A stretch of 64,000 bases of DNA from Gordonia gummivorans (GTDB lineage Bacteria; Actinomycetota; Actinomycetes; Mycobacteriales; Mycobacteriaceae): contig NZ_JAKWBF010000009.1 in the NCBI RefSeq assembly GCF_022513585.1, positions 1 to 64,000 on the forward strand, given 5' to 3'. Under the pieces are notes generated by a model, which had not been told where the DNA came from, made no database searches, and saw nothing but the letters and a program-made list of their open reading frames with translations. Below are positions 33,782-51,803 of the stretch, in pieces; position 1 is the first letter of the stretch, and every line of letters begins with the position of its first letter. A program made the translations under genes and the position numbers.

Positions 33782-33982
33782 TCAAGCCCTCGATCGCAGA
33801 AGCCCGGCTATCGTGACTCGTGGGAACGTGCCGCCACCCGTCTCGGCGCGGCGCGGTTACCGGTGGGTAGGACCCAACGTTCGGCACGATTCGACCCACA
33901 ACGAGATACTGGTAGCGCCGAGACGCTCGGACGCATGCGATCCATGTGGTGAGTGAAGAGAAACCGGAGACAAAGGCGGGTT

Positions 33983-36220
33983 ATGAACGCGAAGCAGCCG
34001 ACCATCATCTACACCCTGACCGACGAGGCGCCGATGCTGGCGACCTACGCCTTCCTTCCGGTCATCCGCGCATTCGCCGACGCGGCCGACATCAACATCG
34101 AGACGAGCGACATCTCGGTGGCCGCCCGCGTGCTGGCCGAGTTCGGTGACTACCTCACCGAAGAACAGCGGGTGCCCGACAATCTGGCCGAATTGGGACG
34201 GCTGACCCAGGATCCTGACACCAACATCATCAAGCTGCCGAACATCAGCGCGTCGGTCCCCCAGTTGCTCGCCGCCATCAAGGAGCTGCAGGGCAAGGGA
34301 TACAAACTCCCCGACTTCCCGGGCAGCCCCAAGACCCCCGAGGAAGAAGAGATTCGGACGCGTTACACCAAGTGTCTGGGCAGTGCGGTCAATCCGGTTC
34401 TGCGCGAAGGTAATTCCGATCGTCGGGCCCCCAAGGCGGTCAAGGAGTACGCGCAGAAGCATCCGCACAGCATGGGCAAATGGTCGATGGCGTCGCGCAC
34501 CCACGTCGCCCACATGCGTCACGGCGACTTCTACCACGGCGAGAAGTCGATGACGGTCGACGGCGACCGTGAGATCAAGATGGAACTGGTCACCGCCGAC
34601 GGCGAGACGATCGTGCTCAAGCCGAAGGTGTCGCTGACCGACGGCGACGTCATCGACAGCATGTACATGAGCAAGAAGGCGCTCATCGAGTTCTACGAAG
34701 AGCAGATGGAAGACGCCTACAAGACCGGCGTGATGTTCTCGCTGCACGTCAAGGCGACGATGATGCGCGTCAGCCATCCGATCGTGTTCGGGCACGCGGT
34801 GCGGACCTTCTACAAGGAGGCCTTCGCCAAACACGGTGAGCTCTTTGATGAGCTGGGCGTCAACGTGAACAACGGTCTGTCGGATCTGTACAGCAAGATC
34901 GAGTCGCTGCCCGCGTCCAAGCGCGAGGAGATCGTCGACGATCTGCACAAGTGTCACGAGCACCGGCCCGAGTTGGCCATGGTCGACTCGGCGCGCGGCA
35001 TCACCAATTTCCACTCCCCCAGCGACGTCATCGTCGACGCCTCCATGCCGGCGATGATCCGGGCCGGAGGCAAGATGTACGGCGCAGACGGCCGCACCAA
35101 GGACACCAAAGCGGTCAACCCGGAATCGACCTTCTCCCGCATCTATCAGGAGATGGTCAACTTCTGTAAGACCAACGGGGCCTTCGATCCCACGACGATG
35201 GGTACGGTGCCCAACGTCGGCCTGATGGCACAGAAGGCCGAGGAATACGGTTCACACGACAAGACATTCGAGGTACCCAAGGCCGGAACCGCAAACATCA
35301 CCGACCTGAAGACCGGCGAGGTGCTGCTCACCCAGGAGGTCGAGGAGGGCGACATCTGGCGACTGTGCATCGTCAAGGACGCACCCATTCAGGACTGGGT
35401 CAAACTGGCCGTAACCCGGACCCGTGAATCCGGCATGCCGGTTGTGTTCTGGCTCGATCCCTACCGTCCGCACGAGAACGAGCTGATCGCCAAGGTGCAC
35501 AAGTACCTCGAGGATCATGACACCGACGGTCTCGACATCCAGATCATGTCGCAGGTTCGGGCAATCCGGTACACGATGGAGAGGCTGATCCGCGGCCTCG
35601 ACACGATCTCGGCCACGGGCAACATCCTGCGTGACTACCTGACCGACCTCTTCCCCATTCTCGAGCTCGGTACGAGCGCCAAGATGCTCTCGATCGTGCC
35701 GCTGATGGCGGGCGGCGGGCTCTACGAGACCGGCGCAGGCGGTTCGGCACCCAAGCACGTCAAGCAGCTCCTCGAGGAGAACCATCTCCGTTGGGATTCG
35801 CTGGGTGAGTTCCTCGCGCTGGCAGTCAGTCTCGAGGATCTCGGGAAGAAGAACGACAACCCGAAGGCCGAGATCCTGGCGAAGACGCTCGACGCGGCCA
35901 CCGGCAAACTGCTGGAGAACGACAAGGGACCGTCGCGCAAGGTGGGTGAGATCGACAACCGCGGCAGCCAGTTCTACCTCGCCCTGTACTGGGCGCAGGC
36001 GCTGGCCGAACAGACCGACGACACCGACCTGCAGAAGCACTTCGCACCGTTCGCCGAGTCACTCGCCGCGAACGAGGACGCCATTCTCGGCGAACTCAAC
36101 GGCGCACAAGGCGAAGCCGTCGACATCGGCGGGTACTACTACCCCGACGGCGATCTGCTCAAGAAGGTGATGCGCCCGAGCACCACCTTCAACGAGGCGC
36201 TGGACGCGGTTCAGTCCTGA
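33983..36220 (+). CDS. icd2: Monomeric NADP-dependent isocitrate dehydrogenase
   Basis: 745 residues from ATG 33983 ([17 protein letters not shown]); GGCGGG precedes it. Length and sequence match the monomeric IDH class (Icd2, Rv0066c: 745 aa). Recognisable blocks include the N-terminal [39 protein letters not shown] with substrate-binding Ser/Asn, the [20 protein letters not shown] block, and [33 protein letters not shown] near the C-terminus. It oxidises isocitrate to 2-oxoglutarate in the TCA cycle. A weak hairpin follows the stop (36238-36285). Confidence 0.97.
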
Positions 36221-40468: not shown

Positions 40469-40731
40469 CAGCGTTCTCCTTCTCGACTTCCCTGGGTGGG
40501 GTCTCGGCTACGGGACGTGCTCAGCCGATTCCTTTGAGCCTAGAAACGCCGGGGTCGGGTGATAAGTCCCAGTTGCGGGGGGACTTTCGGAGATTCGGAT
40601 GTGTTCGTCGCCGGACACGACCTAATCACATGTCCCGTCCAGTGGGTCTGTGCGACAGTGGGATAGGCGAGAATGAAGCTTGCCGGGACCCTACACGGTG
40701 GTTGCGGGATCGATGATTGGGAGGTCGACGA

Positions 40732-41394
40732 ATGGAAGCCGACGCAGTGGCGCGCGTGGGTGTCGTCGACGACCACCAGTCCACGGTCTGGGGTATCGAA
40801 CGAATTCTGGACGGCCATTCGTGGCTCACTCTCGCCGGTGCGGCGCAGACGGTTCCCGAACTGCTCAGCGGCGACGGAGGTTTCGACCTGGTGATCCTGG
40901 ATCTGCGCCTCACCGACGACAGTAGCCCGCAAGCCAATGTCGAACTGTTGCACACCAACGGCATTCACGTTCTGGTGTACACCTCGGGCGAATACCCCGA
41001 TCTACTGCGCTCGGCAGCCAAGGCGGGAGTGCTCGGGATGATCCCCAAGTCGGCGCCGGAGGACATGGTGATTCGAGCGATCGAGGAAGCGGCACGGGGT
41101 GAACCCGTCCTCGGCACGGAGTGGGCTGCCGCCATCGACGCGGACCCAGACCTGAACGCGGTGCGGTTGAGTCCACAGTTGCAGCGCGTGCTGACCCTGT
41201 ACGCCAACGGCGCGACGTCACGGTCCATCAGCGAGGCGATGAATGTTCAAATCGACACCGTCAACGAGTATCTGAAACGAATCCGGCAGAAGTACGCGTC
41301 GGCCGGCAGGCCGGCGAACACGAAACTCGACCTGTTCAAGCGAGCCCTGGAGGACGGGTGGGTATCGATGCCGCACCGTACGTCCGGGATGTGA
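40732..41394 (+). CDS. NarL/LuxR-type response regulator
   Basis: 220 residues from ATG 40732 with GGGAGG 7 nt upstream. The receiver domain has acidic pocket Asp13/Asp14 (VGVVDDHQS), phosphoacceptor Asp57 in LVILDLRL and Lys in GMIPKSAP. The C-terminal LuxR helix-turn-helix is NGATSRSISEAMNVQIDTVNEYLKRIRQKY. Its stop shares TGATG with the kinase gene start (41392-41396), so the two are coupled. Targets unknown. Confidence 0.9.
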   Translation: MEADAVARVGVVDDHQSTVWGIERILDGHSWLTLAGAAQTVPELLSGDGGFDLVILDLRLTDDSSPQANVELLHTNGIHVLVYTSGEYPDLLRSAAKAGVLGMIPKSAPEDMVIRAIEEAARGEPVLGTEWAAAIDADPDLNAVRLSPQLQRVLTLYANGATSRSISEAMNVQIDTVNEYLKRIRQKYASAGRPANTKLDLFKRALEDGWVSMPHRTSGM

Positions 41395-42578
41395 TGGAGG
41401 CGCAGACCGCAGACGGTGATCGAATTCTGCGGCTCCTGACCCGATTCGTCGGACTCGGGTATGCGGCCTACCTACTGGTGTCGATCCCGGAACTGGGTGC
41501 GGACGGTCAGATGGTCGACGGGTGGTGGACGCCGGTGGCCGTCGTCTTGGTCTTCGGCCCCGGGCTCGCGCTGATCGCGACCAGTTTCTCGACGATGCCC
41601 AGTTTCTCGAGAATGCGGGGTGCCACGGGCGTCGCGGCGTGCGCCGCCTTCGGCGGCTACGTGCTCGCCAATCTCTTGTGGCTGATCGCGTGGAACGGTG
41701 GGCACGTGATGTCGGCGAGGAGCACCTGGATGGTGATGTTCTCGGGTCTCGCCGGCCTGTCCGCGGCCCTGGTCGCCCCACCCGCGTGGGCGTTCGCGGG
41801 CCAGGTCGTGGCGTCGTTTCTCAGTGTCCTGACCAACCAGCTAGGACTCGTCGGGGTGGAGTCATTGGCCGCGCGGGTCGCCTACGAGACGGTGTGGGCG
41901 GTGGCCTTCAGCTCGGTGTTTGTCGCCGCAGCACTGCTCACGGTCCGCACCGCGCACCTGCTCGACGCCACGCGCCGCGACGTGGAGCGACAAGCGGTGG
42001 CCGATGCGGCGCGGGTGGCGCGCGACGAGGAACGAGCACGTTTCGACGCACTGGTGCACGACCGCGTCCTGGCCACCCTTCTCCAAGCGCATCGGACACC
42101 GGATGATCCGCGTGTCGGATCTCATGCCCGCGATGCGCTGACCGAACTGGATCGGCTGGCGCACCAGCTCGCCGTTGAAGAAGCGGTTGGGATCGACGCC
42201 CTGCAGCGGCGGCTTCGTCGTGTGTGTGCAGAGCACGCCGTGCAGCCGGAGATCCACACCGACGGCGACGTGGCCGGCGCGCGGTATCCCGCACATGTCG
42301 TCGGAGAGATGCTCGCCGCCGCCGCCGAGGCATTGCGCAACAGCTCATTGCACGCCGCCGGGGCGACCCAGGAGGTGACCGCATGGCTGGCACCGCGGGC
42401 TCTGCGATTGGTCATCGCCGATACCGGGCCCGGGTTCGATTCGCGGCGGCGTGAGAGCGGCCGGCTCGGTCTGGACTTCAGCATCACTCGACGCATGCAG
42501 CGACTTCGTGGTGGCCGATCCGTGGTGACCAGTGCGGTCGACGCCGGTACCACCGTCGAACTCGAGTGGCGCTCGTGA
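41394..42578 (+). CDS. Membrane histidine kinase, DesK/NarX-like
   Basis: 394 residues from ATG 41394 (MEAQTADGDRIL). Five to six hydrophobic segments fill residues ~15-180, then a coil (ATRRDVERQAVADAARVARD) and a HisKA_3-like dimerisation helix with phospho-His222 in DALVHDRVLATLLQA. The ATPase domain is intact: AAAEALRNSSLHA (N box), VIADTGPGFD (G1) and GRLGLDFSI (G2). Paired with the response regulator upstream; the input signal is probably sensed in the membrane. The downstream gene starts with ATG on its stop (TGATG). Confidence 0.87.
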   Translation: MEAQTADGDRILRLLTRFVGLGYAAYLLVSIPELGADGQMVDGWWTPVAVVLVFGPGLALIATSFSTMPSFSRMRGATGVAACAAFGGYVLANLLWLIAWNGGHVMSARSTWMVMFSGLAGLSAALVAPPAWAFAGQVVASFLSVLTNQLGLVGVESLAARVAYETVWAVAFSSVFVAAALLTVRTAHLLDATRRDVERQAVADAARVARDEERARFDALVHDRVLATLLQAHRTPDDPRVGSHARDALTELDRLAHQLAVEEAVGIDALQRRLRRVCAEHAVQPEIHTDGDVAGARYPAHVVGEMLAAAAEALRNSSLHAAGATQEVTAWLAPRALRLVIADTGPGFDSRRRESGRLGLDFSITRRMQRLRGGRSVVTSAVDAGTTVELEWRS

Positions 42579-43660
42579 TGCCGACGTCGCCCGTCGACCA
42601 GGATGATCCGGGCCGTGGCTCGGATCCGGTCCATGACCTTCTCGGTATGCATTCACGCGGCGCTCGCACGGTCGCGTACGGATTCTTCGCGGCCGGCTGT
42701 CTGCTGACCTTCGGGTCGCTGAAGTCCGGTGTGGGGGTCGCCGCGGCGGTTGTTCCGCTCGCGCTGCTCGCCGTCGGCGGCGCGGTGCTCCTGCGGACCC
42801 ACGGCGACCCACTCCCTCGCCGCGCCACCGTCGTGGTCGCGATCGTCCCGATCGTGCAGGCCATCGCGATGCTGCCCGCCCTGCCGGTGCCCATCAACCA
42901 GCCGCTGCAGGCCGCGGTGGCCTTCGGTGGCGGCACGGTCCTGTGTGCCTTTCTGTGTGTGCGTGGACGTGTGGCGGCGTCGTGGACGAGTCAGGCGATC
43001 GTGTTCGCGGTGGCGGCGGCGTGGGCGCTGCGCACCGGAGGCGGTCTCGACCAGGCCGTTGGACAGTTGCTGTCCAGCACCGGCTTGATGGTCTCGGCGA
43101 CTCTGTTCGCGTGGCTGGTGCGACCCGCCGCCGCGACCATCTATCGGCTGCGCGCTGCCCAGACCCGTCAGCTGGCCGAGCGTGCCGCCGCCGACGCGGT
43201 CCGCACCGAGCGGGCGACGCAAAAGGCTCGGCTCGATGAACTGGCTCGCCCGCTGCTCGTCACCATCGCCGAGGACGGTGGTCTGACCGGCGGTGACGTC
43301 GAACACGCACGTCTCCTCGAGGCGCGGCTGCGCGACGGGATCCGGGCACGTGCTCTCGATGTCCGGCAGGTGACTCGATCGACCTGGGCGGCACGGGCGC
43401 GCGGCGTCGACGTCCGGCTCCTCGACGACAGTCGCAGCGGGCCAACGGATGCGGACGAGGCGACGATGGCCGGACTCCACGCGGAGATCGTCACCCACCT
43501 CGACCGGGCCGTCGACGGACAGATCACCATCCGACTCCAGCCTCCGGGCCGGACGTCTCTGGCCACGATCACCACCATCACCGCCGACGGCGTGAGCATC
43601 CACGAGATCGCGGCCGCCGGTGCGGCCGAGGCCACCGCCGGAGCGGAGAACGGCATCTAG
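42578..43660 (+). CDS. Degenerate sensor-kinase-like membrane protein
   Basis: 360 residues from ATG 42578, overlapping the kinase stop. The N-terminal half has five or six hydrophobic segments. A coil and a helix follow in register with the kinase: RARFDALVHDRVLATL of the neighbour corresponds to [16 protein letters not shown] here, so the phospho-His is replaced by Arg. No N-box or G-box remains after it. It looks like a paralogue of the kinase that has lost catalysis, perhaps a co-sensor or anchoring subunit. It ends on the CTAG that is also the jetC stop. Confidence 0.72.
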
Positions 43661-46600
43661 ACCGGCAGCCGCGCCCCGCTCGAGCGGCGCAGATCCGAGA
43701 ACGCCTGAATCGAGGTGGACATCGCGGTCGCCACCGGACGCGCATCGGCCCCTTCGGTTTTCGACACCATCACGACGTTGTCGATGTACGGCTGGATCGT
43801 GCTGGTGTTCTGCACGGTCGCAACGATGATCAGCTGGAAGCCGAACTTCCGGAACGCCGACAGGGCCTGTTGCGCGAATTGCGGATCCGACTTGGAGAAG
43901 GCTTCGTCGAGCATCAGCTGGGCGAAGATCGGACGGTTGTCATGACCGTTGGGACTCGCCAGGTTGAAGCTCAGCGCGCCCGCGAGACAGAACGCCATCA
44001 GCTTTTCCTGCTCGCCACCGGAGTTGTCGCCGGCGTTACTGTAGGTCCGAATGGTCTCGCCGCTGTCGGCGTCGTGCTCCTCGCAATAGAAGTCGAAGCG
44101 ATTGCGCACGTCGAGTGCGTCCCGAGTCCATTGCCGGTCCTCGGGCGTGGCACCCGCCAGCCGTTCGCGCAGGAGCAGGATGTCGGCATACTGCTCCAGG
44201 ATCGCCTGCTCGTCACCGAAACCCACCGCCGCCGCCCGGCCCGAGATCTGCCGCGCCTTCTCGCTCAGTTCGGCGACCGCAGCCAGGTGTTTGCGGCCCG
44301 GATGCAATCGCAGTCGGGTTCCTCGGTTGAATGCGACGGCACCCAGACCGCTGTTGACACGTTCGATCTGCTCGACGATGCGGCGCTCCTCCGCGTCGGC
44401 GGCCATGTGCAGGTTGAGGATTGCGCCCGGTGCCTGCTCGGTGATGAGCCGGCGCATCCGCTCGTAGGCAGATGGGAGTTCCCGCTCGTCGATCCGTCGG
44501 CACAGCGACACATAGTCGTGGATGCGCTCGTCGAAATCGTCGCTGTCGTTGGGGATGGCGTCCGGGAACTCTTCGTCGTATCGGTCGAGGATGCGGGCCA
44601 GTTCGTCACGCGAACGCCTTGTGTCCGAACGCATTCGATCGCGGTCGCGGGACACGACCTTCACCAGCTCCTGCCGGTACGACTCGGGCGCGAGCACGTC
44701 GAGCGTGGCGGCCGACTCCTCGCGGAATCCGTCGAGGGACGTCTGCGCCTGCGGCGCAATCGGTTCCGGCTTCAGGCGATCGATCAGATCGAGCAGTTGG
44801 GTGCGGCGCCGATCGTGAGTCGCGATCTTGTCGCGCACCAGGGCGGCCTGGGAGATCGCGGCACGCACCTGCTCCCAGATGTCCTCGGCCTTGCGCTGCA
44901 GCGCCTCGACATCGGGGTGCTCTTCCATCAGCAGGTCGTACTGCTCGGCCAGCTGATCCACCCGATCGTCGGCGGAATCGAGGTCGATTTCGCTCCACTG
45001 GGTGAACTGCTCGCAGAGTCTGCGGTAGGAATCGCGGCGCTGTTCACGCGACGTTCGTTCGCCGTCGAGCGTCGCACTGGCCTCGCGCGCCTGGTCGTAG
45101 GCGTGCTGTTCGGCGTCGAGTTCCTCTTGCAGCGCTGCGATCTTGGCGTCGACATTGCCGACGAACACGTACTGTGAGGGTCGCAGCGCTTGGCGGTCGT
45201 CCTTGACGGCCAGCTTCGCCGAGTCCTTGCGCAGACCACGATCGGTCACCGCTTTGGTGTGGTCGCCGAAGTCGGCGGTCGACTCGACGCATGCGTAATT
45301 GCCGAGGCGGGCAAGGATGGACAGCGCTTCCGACGAGCACGGGTGCGCCGGGTCGACGGCCCGCAAGGTGGCGCCGAGGGTGCCGGCCTCGGGGGTCGGC
45401 GGTCGACGATCCTCGGCATGGTGCAGCTGAATCCGTCCACGCATGTCGTGGTTGTTGACGAACCGAAGTGCTGCCCGGAAATGCTTGTCGGGAACGAGAA
45501 GTCGCAAGCCTGCCGAGCGCAGCACCTTCTCCACGGCCAGCCGCCAGCGCTCCTGGTCGGGATCGAGTTCGACGAGTTCGGCGACGTAACGCAATTCGGA
45601 TTCGTCGATGCCCAGCGCGGTGGCGAGCACCCGCCGCATCTCGTGCTCGGCGCGCGGAAGGGCCGAACCGGCCTGCTGCACCCGGGTGAGTTCGTCGGCC
45701 ACCGCATCACGCTGGGTACGCGCAGCCACCTCGCGTGCCAGGGTCTCGGCAAAATGCGCCTTGCCGGCCTCGAGTTGGCCCTCGATGTGGGTGGCGTCCT
45801 CCATCAGGGTCTCGCGCAGAGACCAGAATTCCTCGGCGTCGTTGGGCGGTGAGAAACCGAGCGCGGTCACCTTGTGCTCGTAGCTCGCCCGCCGGATCGA
45901 GGCCTCGTTGCTCACCTTCTGGGCGGTCGCGAGTTGCTCTTGCAGCGGGGCGAGGTCACCGGTCGACGTCGCGATCCGCGACAGGAGATGCGAGTGGTCT
46001 TGCCGGAGTTGGTCGTGCTGGGCGGTGAGGGCCGCCAAATCGCCGTCGAGCCTTGCAATCTGATCGTCGAGGTCGCTGACTTCGGGCGTCGCGTTGTGGA
46101 GGCGGAGGTTGTTCACGTACGAACGCACCGTCGTGGGATCGATCGTGTCGAGGACGCTGAACGTCGCAGCCTCGGCGACATAGCGTTCCTGGACGGTTTC
46201 GATGTTGGCGAGGATGGTGCGTTTGCGCCGGGCCACATCGAGCAGTTCTCGTGCCTCGACGAGCGGGTCGATCTGTTCAAGGGCGTCTTTGATGCCCGCG
46301 ATGCTGGTCGGTTCGTCGAGCATGAACTCGCGAACGAACTGCGCCAGACCGCCAACACTCTTGAGTGACTTCGCTTTTCCGAGGAGCTGCTGGGCCGCCT
46401 CGGACGCGCGGATCCCGATGAGCGAGTACAGGGTGGCAAGGTATTTACCCTCGCCGGGCCCACCTCGCCAGCCTTGTTCACGGAACCGGGCCGAATTGTG
46501 ATTGCCGGTCGCCCAGGCGTTGCACACCTCGGCGATGTCGGTGTCACCGTCGTGGATGTAATAGGCGCTGTGCGCGTCGGTCATCTTTCCGGCCGCCAGC

Positions 46601-47001
46601 CACTTGAGCACCAGTCCGGTGATCGCCGCACCCGACGTCGACGTGTAGGTCACCGCGATGGCGGCCCAGGCCGGTCCGGCGCCGCGCAGGTACATGATCT
46701 CGCGGGCCGCGTTGGCGCTGTCGCGGCGTTCACCCCACGCGCCACGCACGTACTTGCCGACGGTGCGCCGCCCGCTCGACGAACCGGCAGCGGTGGCGTC
46801 GCCGGACGCGTTGAAGTTGCGCCGGTGATCGGGCAGGAAGGCCAGCGAAATCGCATCCAACAGAGACGATTTGCCGCTGCCCGACGACCCGGTGATCAGT
46901 GATCCGTTGGGGCTGAACGGAATCGAGTGGTACCCGTCGAAGACACCCCAGTTGATCAACTGGAGCCGGGACAGGGAGTACTGGTCGACGGGTTGGTTCA
47001 C
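43657..47001 (-). CDS. jetC: JetC/MksB-like SMC ATPase of a Wadjet-type system
   Basis: 1114 residues from GTG 47001, with AAGGAG 7 nt upstream and a 4-bp GTGA overlap with jetB. Walker A is [14 protein letters not shown] (near residues 38-51). Long coiled-coil arms occupy roughly 260-480 and 630-860. The C-terminal ABC signature is [17 protein letters not shown], and Walker B is [14 protein letters not shown]. The family dimerises and extrudes DNA loops with JetA/JetB. In Wadjet, JetD then cuts circular plasmid DNA; no jetD follows this gene. Function as a condensin-like or anti-plasmid motor is inferred. Confidence 0.9.
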
Positions 47002-47771
47002 CAATCGTCTCCTTCGTCGTCCTCGTCGGAATCGAGTGCGATGACCTGCGTCCCGGCCTCATCGACCGACTGGTCGTCGTCGCCGGTGTCGCCCGCGGAG
47101 ATGAACTGCTCGAACTGCCGCTGCAGATCGGTGATCACCGACGCGGTCATCACGGCGGAGATGACCGGGCTGACGGTGAACGTGTCGGGATCGTCGCGGT
47201 TCTTGCGCAAGAACTCGAGTTCTTCGAGTTTGTCGATGGCGTGCTCGATGCGCTTGTCGAACAGCGCGAGATCACGATCGATCGTGTTGCTGACTCCTGC
47301 GAACAGTTCATGGATTTCTTCGCGCGTGATCATGATGTGCTCATCGCGCGCGGCACGAGCGTACTTCGCCAGGTGCAGCGCGAGTATGGCGTCGTAGGTC
47401 TGTATCGTCTCCCGCTTGAGAATCCTTCTGCCCCAACGTGAATCATATCCAGCCTGCTCGACGAAGGCGACCTGCAGTTCGTCCACTATGCGCAACCGCA
47501 GGTCGAGTTCGGACAGCCGCACCCGCAGAGCATCGGAGTACTCGGAAACCCAGGCCCAGAGTTGTGGATGTCGGTCGCCACTGACATATCGCCTCGTCAC
47601 CAGGTTCTGCAGCGCCCAGCAGGCGCGGTCGGGCAATTCGCTGCGATCGCCGTCGAACCGAGGGTGGCGCGGCCGCAGATCGTCGGCCGGTCCAGTCGCC
47701 GCGGCGGGTAGGTCGTCGTAGCCGGCGAATTCGTCGGCGTCCGGTGCACCGTCATCGGTGGTTGTTGTCAT
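46998..47771 (-). CDS. jetB: JetB/MksE-like DUF4194 subunit
   Basis: 257 residues from ATG 47771, overlapping the jetA stop by ATGA. The acidic N-terminal tail is followed by the DUF4194 core: [24 protein letters not shown], then [33 protein letters not shown] and [11 protein letters not shown]. The C-terminus is very acidic ([11 protein letters not shown]). This winged-helix subunit bridges kleisin JetA and motor JetC; it is equivalent to MksE/EptB. Confidence 0.88.
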
Positions 47772-49243
47772 AGCGCGTCGACCTCCGCGGTCGGAATCGG
47801 TTCGGTGAACATCAGGGCCGGGACCTCGATCGCCTGGTCCTCCCCCTGCAGGGAGCGGAATCGGAGCGCAACGGACTCATGTGCGTTGTTGCCGGGCTGT
47901 TTGAGCGCCCACGACCACAGGACGATGACGTGCGCCAGGTACGGCTCGTTCAGCCGTGCAAGCACCTCCGACAGTGTCACCGGGCCGTCGAGGACCGCGT
48001 TGTTGACCGTCTCGGTGAGTTCGACGGTGTCGACCTGGCCGGCGAGCGACGCGAAGGAGGAGAGGTCGGCGTCGCCACCGGCGGGCAGGGCGGGCGCCGG
48101 CGGATCGGGATGGCGGATCTCGAAGGCGAGTCGGCCGACCGACGACACCGCAGGTGTGGCCAGCGGCATCTCGTAGCCGATGCGGCGATCCGACAGGGAC
48201 GCCTTCAGCAGTTCGTTTGCGGTGGCGATCGCGTCGTTGAGTTGTCGGGCCACGCCGCGACTCTGTTCGAGTGTGCCCGAGGCCACGAACCTGCGGATGC
48301 GCCGCGCGCAGCGCTGACGGGTGCGCCCGACCTCACCCATCTGTTGGGTGACCAACCCGAAGAAGTTGTCCATCACCGACCGCAGCCCGGTGTCGATGCC
48401 CGGCAGGTGGTCGGTGACCGTCTCGATGTCGGAGATCAGCCGCGCCCGCTGCTCGGGATCCTGGATCATCTGGCTGAACGCGTGGTACGACGCACTCTGC
48501 GACGACTCCAGAAGTGCCTCGTAGTCGTCGAACATCTGACGTTGTCTATCGCGGTAGGCGAGGTCGGAATCGTTCGGGTCGTCGAGCAGTTGGGTGGTGA
48601 TGCGATCGAGCATGCTGCCGTACTGGCCGATGTCGGTGATCACCTGCTCCATCTGGTAGGCGATTGCTCGCGCTTCGTCCTCGGCGCTCCGCAGATCCGG
48701 GGCTCGTCGGTGGCCGGCGTCGAGGTCGGCGAGTTCGGCGTCGAGTTCTTCGATCTGGTGGGTGATCTCGTCGCGGATGTGGTCGGGATCGTCGGAGACC
48801 TGACCAGCGACCCGTCGGAGGCCCGCGGCGATGCCGTTGATGGAGCCGCCGGTCGCGACACTGTCTTCACGACGCAGCCGGCGCACATAGTCCAACACCG
48901 ATCGAGCGTCGGTCGAGAGGTAGCAGAGGTTCGGGGCGCCATCGGTGGCGTTGTCGGTCACCCGGTGCAGCCATCCCTGCTTGGCCCACAGCTTGATCAG
49001 ATCCAGGCCGTTCGGGGTGTCGGCGGCGCCCAGCTCGGCAACGTCGCGTTCGAGCCGGACGGCGAGATCGGTCTCGGCCAGGCGTGCGCCGAAGTCGAGA
49101 TGCCGCTCCATCAAGGTGACGTACAGGGCCGAGTTGGCGGCGGCGAAGAGCCGGACCGCGGCCGAACGCTGGATCGACCTGTTGGCCTCCCACACCTCGG
49201 CAAGCGTCGCCGGGCCGGCGTCGCTGAGCTCAGTACCGTTCAT
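47768..49243 (-). CDS. jetA: JetA/MksF-like DUF3375 kleisin
   Basis: 491 residues from ATG 49243, with GAGGG 5 nt upstream; the open frame runs upstream to 50047 through an unrelated gene. DUF3375 features: [52 protein letters not shown] and the coiled [13 protein letters not shown]. The C-terminal winged-helix part ([20 protein letters not shown]) would bind JetC. First gene of jetABC; all three overlap by 4 bp. Confidence 0.88.
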
Positions 49244-50690: not shown

Positions 50691-51803
50691 ATGGTTATGG
50701 CAGACCGCCCCGAGGTTCAGACGGCGTCCGCGCCGGTCACCGCCCTGGCTGTGGTGGGATTGGCGCAATCGATGCTGAACGGACTGGCGCAGGTCCCGTT
50801 CCGCCAACCCTGGCGCGGCCCGGCCGGCCTCCTCGACAACATCGGCCAGTCGGTGACGCGACAGACCATTCGGTCCTTCATGGGCTATTCGATGGGACTA
50901 CCCATCGACGAGTTCCGCTCGATGGAGAAGATCCTCGACGACATCTGCCAGTGGGTTATGCCCCCATTCATCGCGTTGACCGACGGTGTGGAGATCACCG
51001 CGGACACTGTCGGCGGCGTTCCGGGTCTGTGGTGTCGTGCCAAGGCCAGTTCCGATGCCTACGTCGACGACCCCGCTGACAAGCAGGAGATCGGGGCGAC
51101 GATCCTCTACCTCCACGGCGGGGGTTACATCGGTACGTCACCCATCATGTACTCGGCGTTCGCCGCCTCGCTGGTCAAGGCCACCGGAAACGAGGTGTTC
51201 ATCGCCGACTACCGGATGGCACCCGAATTCCCCTTCCCCGCAGGCGTTCTCGACGCCGCGGACGTGTTCCGCGGCCTGCTCGACCGTGGTGTGTCGCCGG
51301 ATCACCTTGTGGTGGCGGGTGATTCGGGCGGTGGCGGACTCGCCGCGTCTCTGGTGTCGTACCTGCACGCACATGATCTTCCGATGCCCGCCGCGGTTGC
51401 GCTGTTCTCGCCGGAGGTCGACCTCGATCTCGATCATCCGTCGGTCACCGAGAACGCACATCTCGACATCCTCCCCTGGAACGTCCCGGTCACCCCGTAT
51501 CTGCAAGGCGTGCAACCCAATGACGCGCGGGTCTCGATCGTCGACGACCCCGACCCGGACTGGTTTCCGCCGACCTTCGTGTGCTGGGGTGCCGACGAGA
51601 TGTTCCGCGACGGGATCCGGCTGTTCGTCGAACGACTCGAAGGTGCCGGAGTGCAGGTCTATGCCATGGAGGAGTACGGCATGTTCCACGTCTTTCCGAT
51701 CCTCATGCCGTGGGCCGAGTCATCGAGACGGGTGTTCCGTGCGCTCGAGGAACTCTCCACACGGCATGTCAAACCCGACCTCGCTGCCGAGCAGACGCAC
51801 TGA
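50691..51803 (+). CDS. HSL-family alpha/beta hydrolase (esterase/lipase)
   Basis: 370 residues from ATG 50691 (50697 is an alternative). HSL motifs: oxyanion HGGGYIGTSP, nucleophile GDSGGGGLAAS, acid Asp in FVCWGADEMFRDG and His in GMFHVFPIL. The N-terminal ~90 residues form a cap-like extension (GLAQVPFRQPWRGPAGL). Hydrolyses short- to medium-chain esters by family. No linked genes; an inverted repeat follows the stop. Confidence 0.88.
   Translation: MVMADRPEVQTASAPVTALAVVGLAQSMLNGLAQVPFRQPWRGPAGLLDNIGQSVTRQTIRSFMGYSMGLPIDEFRSMEKILDDICQWVMPPFIALTDGVEITADTVGGVPGLWCRAKASSDAYVDDPADKQEIGATILYLHGGGYIGTSPIMYSAFAASLVKATGNEVFIADYRMAPEFPFPAGVLDAADVFRGLLDRGVSPDHLVVAGDSGGGGLAASLVSYLHAHDLPMPAAVALFSPEVDLDLDHPSVTENAHLDILPWNVPVTPYLQGVQPNDARVSIVDDPDPDWFPPTFVCWGADEMFRDGIRLFVERLEGAGVQVYAMEEYGMFHVFPILMPWAESSRRVFRALEELSTRHVKPDLAAEQTH

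Follow-up and report, generated by a model that had tools for sequence, protein, structure and literature searches.

The jetABC operon and its products

The window analysed here, a stretch of 64,000 nucleotides of the Gordonia gummivorans genome, carries three consecutive genes on its (-) strand. The gene jetA (47768..49243, 491 aa) encodes an MksF-like kleisin (DUF3375; Pfam PF11855, 380 bits; PADLOC JetA, 824 bits), jetB (46998..47771, 257 aa) an MksE-like KITE protein (DUF4194; PF13835 and PF21980 MksE; PADLOC JetB, 463 bits) and jetC (43657..47001, ~1114 aa) an MksB-like SMC ATPase (AAA_29 and SbcC_Walker_B; PADLOC JetC, 1956 bits). All three are full length, and the PADLOC profiles JetA1, JetB1 and JetC1 match the respective proteins over nearly their entire length. 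The start of jetC is probably the GTG at 47001; the listed ORF begins at an alternative TTG at 47004. Neighbouring genes overlap by 4 bp, ATGA for jetA/jetB and GTGA for jetB/jetC. Homologues of JetA, JetB and JetC occupy a single operon as in Wadjet, and the locus shares with Wadjet JetABCD type I, MksBEFG and EptABCD the three subunits, the gene order, the overlapping genes and the ATPase motifs.

Searching the PDB by sequence, the Wadjet JetC chains were found to match the JetC of the window as distant relatives (E = 4.8e-56), while JetB returned chance matches only. The best match to an AlphaFold model of JetA of low confidence (pLDDT 67, pTM 0.35) is Wadjet JetA, followed by MukF; this model and that of JetB (pLDDT 55) are usable for family recognition at most.

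As in MksBEF-type complexes, the ATPase motifs of JetC are intact: Walker A GSSGSGKSS (46864..46890, (-) strand, present in 81/81 relatives), signature DNSGGEQEK and Walker B LMLDEAF. ATPase motifs were found in all 81 related JetC sequences examined. These domain, overlap and motif checks and the searches for jetD described below confirm what an earlier note had read from the letters of this DNA, namely a complete jetABC operon with 4-bp overlaps and intact ATPase motifs but devoid of jetD.

Absence of jetD from the operon and the genome

The earlier note also stated that jetC ends directly on a convergent operon. The two stop codons indeed overlap by 4 bp (CTAG), the convergent gene (42566..43660, (+) strand) coding for a membrane protein of no Pfam family that lies outside the system. 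Consequently, no space is left at the 3' end of jetC for jetD or a remnant of it. The convergent operon (40717-43660) consists of genes for a response regulator, a histidine kinase-like protein and this membrane protein.

JetD, the DUF3322/DUF2220 Toprim nuclease of Wadjet, is thus missing from the operon, and it was not found elsewhere. JetD_C (PF09983) had no match in the whole genome, the C. glutamicum control being positive, and the whole-genome search for DUF3322 (PF11795) gave a single sub-threshold match at chance level (E = 0.275). An assembly gap is an unlikely cause, since the genome (5.31 Mb in 111 contigs) received a completeness score of 100%. JetD_C was likewise not found in 26 other Gordonia genomes carrying the same operon, and together with the PF09983 and PF11795 searches this leads us to reject a missed jetD or an assembly gap. 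No Gordonia relative of the operon has jetD at the junction either, so that both places in which the earlier note proposed to look for the nuclease, the rest of the genome and the junction in relatives, proved empty.

Distribution and conservation in Gordonia

The D-less operon with the JetC type of the window (81-90% identity) was found in 37 of 59 Gordonia species genomes. SMC identity to the window genome is 75% or higher in 38 of the species; 37 of these carry the operon (a membership counted by hand, three of the 38 resting on a fragmented smc), as opposed to none of the remaining 21. The one clade species lacking this operon type is G038. SMC itself is encoded in all 59 genomes, that of the window genome being a canonical SMC. 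JetD_C was detected in 15 of the 59 and is absent from 27 of the 37 carriers; nine of the 37 encode a JetD adjoining a second JetC, which is only 24-28% identical to that of the window. Supply of JetD in trans by a second Wadjet is consequently rejected for most carriers. The sole JetD_C of carrier G025 is an unlinked fragment of 126 aa (L127, 5877-6257) with no jet genes beside it.

JetC is conserved to about the same degree as the housekeeping SMC, with a mean identity over 34 genomes of 83.4% vs 81.5%. Within Gordonia, dN ranges from 0.06 to 0.12 vs a dS of 0.8 to 1.4 (NG86, dS being near saturation). Purifying selection and the motifs intact in 81/81 sequences together argue for JetC being a working ATPase. 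The location of the operon is also fixed: all 14 contigs that contain both genes have jetC at a distance of 360-573 kb from smc, on its 3' side, and in 13 the two share a strand.

Such housekeeping-like conservation at a fixed location is unusual for defence. It weighs against the possibility that JetABC controls plasmids without cutting, small circles being compacted or silenced and their copy number lowered. This possibility draws on the action of Wadjet/Mks relatives on plasmids; in particular, the actinobacterial MksBEFG of C. glutamicum, nuclease included, was studied in its native host and acts on plasmids, not on the chromosome (PMC7083940, PMC10123090). It also has a model in Smc5/6, for which compaction without cutting has been proposed (PMC10586767). 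We regard it as quite unlikely for the Gordonia operon.

Relatives of the operon and evolution of the D-less state

Mycobacterial operons whose JetC is 54-63% identical to that of the window have no jetD at the locus, and JetD_C is absent from 42 of the 50 mycobacterial genomes with a D-less operon. Across 301 genomes of the family, JetD adjoins a JetC relative of at least 50% identity in a single genome (G334). A more distant JetC group (32-35%) is present in 16/16 genomes of one genus, none of them among the genomes with JetD_C. A major Gordonia clade and one further genus have D-less operons among their core genes. Searches of viral contigs revealed no relative of the operon. Matches in plasmid records were all below 60% identity, the best being a Tsukamurella record (33%) in which the JetC reading is split in two genes. 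This 22-kb record, plasmid 2 of Tsukamurella tyrosinosolvens NCTC13231, carries a JetABC-like operon, and the split of its JetC could reflect an assembly error or decay.

The nearest JetABCD operons, L141 (in G334) and L189, group together in the JetC tree as sister to 21 D-less rows (support 98/88). They were found in two genomes only, and their JetC is 50-51% identical to that of the window; they differ from the Gordonia operon by a jetD directly after jetC and, near L141, an apparent transposase gene. L189 belongs to Mycolicibacterium sp. 018/SC-01/001, which also encodes a D-less operon (L083); JetC identity to the window is 51% for the D-bearing and 55% for the D-less operon. Within this family alone, the tree requires five or more switches between the D-bearing and the D-less state. 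A single clade of all D-less JetC with L141 outside was rejected (AU p about 1e-39), which implies either several losses of jetD or one loss and a regain. When the Gordonia and mycobacterial carriers diverged, their operon already lacked jetD. Further D-less JetC rows (L174, L175, L177 and L178) form pairs, each with a D-bearing relative as its sister, which suggests that jetD was lost repeatedly within the family. An orphan JetD_C remnant without jet neighbours was observed around 8400-8800 of L190, in a Mycobacterium genome that has a D-less jetABC.

This orphan domain and the 126-aa fragment of G025 show that jetD does decay in the family, and one might take the Gordonia operon for a decaying remnant of JetABCD after a recent loss of jetD. 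Such a reading is largely refuted: all three genes are intact, dN is far lower than dS, none of the 81 sequences departs from the motifs, and the D-less state was in place before the Gordonia carriers parted from the mycobacterial ones.

Genes downstream of jetC and a possible partner of JetB

The earlier note had also raised the option of an unrecognised effector. The operon is flanked by two synteny anchors that recur beside jetABC in other Gordonia, a monomeric isocitrate dehydrogenase gene downstream (33953..36220, (+) strand; PF03971, 1253 bits; 15 of 26 loci in the shared-neighbour clustering) and an alpha/beta hydrolase gene upstream (50691..51803, (+) strand; PF07859; 11 of 26 loci). 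Variable genes separate jetC from isocitrate dehydrogenase across Gordonia; G. amarae (L049) and L060 have the isocitrate dehydrogenase cluster immediately after jetC. A comparison of the 26 loci revealed no co-directional gene downstream of jetC common to Gordonia and hence no neighbouring effector in place of JetD. The option is thus unsupported in the Gordonia neighbourhood, although in some relatives the place of the fourth gene is taken by a DNA-repair gene.

In one D-less sister subclade an AlkZ-like DNA glycosylase gene lies directly after jetC in 11/11 sampled loci (L142-L145, L147, L150-L153, L159 and L160, from five genus codes), its start being -4 to +6 nt from jetC in the nine loci measured. 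In nine mycobacterial loci (L068, L077, L078, L082, L086, L097, L099, L103 and L106), an ExoIII-like (Exo_endo_phos) gene starts -10 to +13 nt from the jetC stop; L102 and L109 have such a gene close by. An AlkZ orthologue is encoded in 59/59 Gordonia genomes, with or without jetABC. AlkZ is consequently rejected as a hidden effector in Gordonia, and its linkage to jetC in the sister subclade is a lead only.

Near its N-terminus, JetB bears the motif PRFDGD (47646..47663, (-) strand), in the region where the IFDR motif of Wadjet JetB contacts JetD (PMC10586767). The P, R, F, G and D residues are invariant in an alignment of 25 sequences, and PRF[DE]GD occurs in all 104 related JetB listed; the D-bearing L141 has the same motif. 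Loss of a docking motif can therefore not be invoked as proof of independence from JetD. Based on its conservation, the motif, whose correspondence to IFDR is one of region, may be structural or may bind another, unknown partner.

Two readings build on these observations. JetABC could sense small circles and recruit an unrecognised nuclease in trans, thereby controlling plasmids as Wadjet does. The conserved JetB motif and the nuclease-type or glycosylase genes directly after jetC in some relatives would suit such a mechanism, but we consider it unlikely given that no conserved gene lies beside the operon in Gordonia, that 27 of 37 carriers lack any JetD_C and that the AlkZ orthologue is there irrespective of jetABC. 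Alternatively, JetABC might be a genome-repair condensin acting with base-excision or crosslink repair, as the AlkZ-like and ExoIII-like genes beside jetC would suggest. A plasmid shredder would then have turned into a repair condensin, its JetD slot refilled in relatives by AlkZ- or ExoIII-like enzymes and its JetB motif binding a repair partner. In Gordonia and in most mycobacteria, however, repair genes do not adjoin jetC; Gordonia genomes have AlkZ as a core gene whatever their jetABC status, and the ExoIII linkage, limited to some related species, may be positional. To us, a repair condensin, also in this wider version with repair enzymes in the JetD slot, appears improbable, even more so than plasmid control without cutting.

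A probable nuclease-less condensin derived from Wadjet

The operon has intact subunits, a JetD_C-free genome, clade-wide conservation, purifying selection, a fixed location and a D-bearing sister group; it is neither an artefact nor a product of decay. Since the complex is complete, slowly evolving and anciently D-less, a condensin is more likely than a broken defence system. We therefore favour, with a probability of about 0.6, an MksBEF-type condensin derived from Wadjet, most likely a second condensin beside SMC. Judging from the evolutionary pattern, a chromosomal role is most likely, and of the options listed in the earlier note chromosome organisation fits the data best. A complete, ATPase-competent JetABC/MksBEF from a Wadjet-type ancestor would have lost its nuclease subunit and, as a set of core genes, been passed on by vertical descent. 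JetC dimers would be bridged by the JetA kleisin and the JetB KITE protein and load on chromosomal DNA; without JetD, the complex would translocate DNA or extrude loops but not cut, and could take part in chromosome organisation or repair.

The earlier note implied a layout without precedent. P. aeruginosa, however, has a D-less MksBEF. Both this complex and SMC act on the chromosome (PMC7485682), and loss of JetD from JetABCD is its probable origin (PMC10586767). The Gordonia operon belongs to this known kind of nuclease-less Wadjet relative: a MukBEF-like SMC, a KITE protein and a kleisin without nuclease, alongside SMC-ScpAB (the latter judged by SMC alone). The likeness to P. aeruginosa MksBEF, which lacks MksG and also has three subunits beside SMC and no nuclease partner, is one of composition; P. 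aeruginosa belongs to another phylum, and the chromosomal role known there is predicted here. Wadjet JetABCD differs from the operon in its JetD, which the window genome lacks in operon and genome alike, and in the vertical inheritance, fixed site and SMC-like conservation seen in Gordonia. Three observations speak against the condensin reading: the C. glutamicum Mks complex, which includes MksG, acts on plasmids and not the chromosome; the JetB motif is strongly conserved in the region of JetD docking; and over evolutionary time the operon can be done without, since this type is missing from G038 and from 21 other Gordonia.

In reviews, Wadjet defence systems have been proposed as the ancestors of the condensins MukBEF and MksBEF. 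Since a D-bearing and a D-less operon were found together within a single Mycolicibacterium genome, and since operons without jetD count among the core genes, this transition from defence to condensin becomes testable with close relatives. Defence-finding tools will call such operons Wadjet despite the missing nuclease, and their output should be read with caution.

A second D-less JetABC lineage was observed in 12 Gordonia genomes (L112-L123), its JetC being 24-26% identical to that of the window. Its sister is a D-bearing operon in G008, and no genome has both this lineage and the window type; the chance of such non-overlap at random would be 6e-7, but shared ancestry explains much of it. 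In G017 (L115, 5442-16334), a JetABCD operon lies next to a D-less JetABC of this second lineage.
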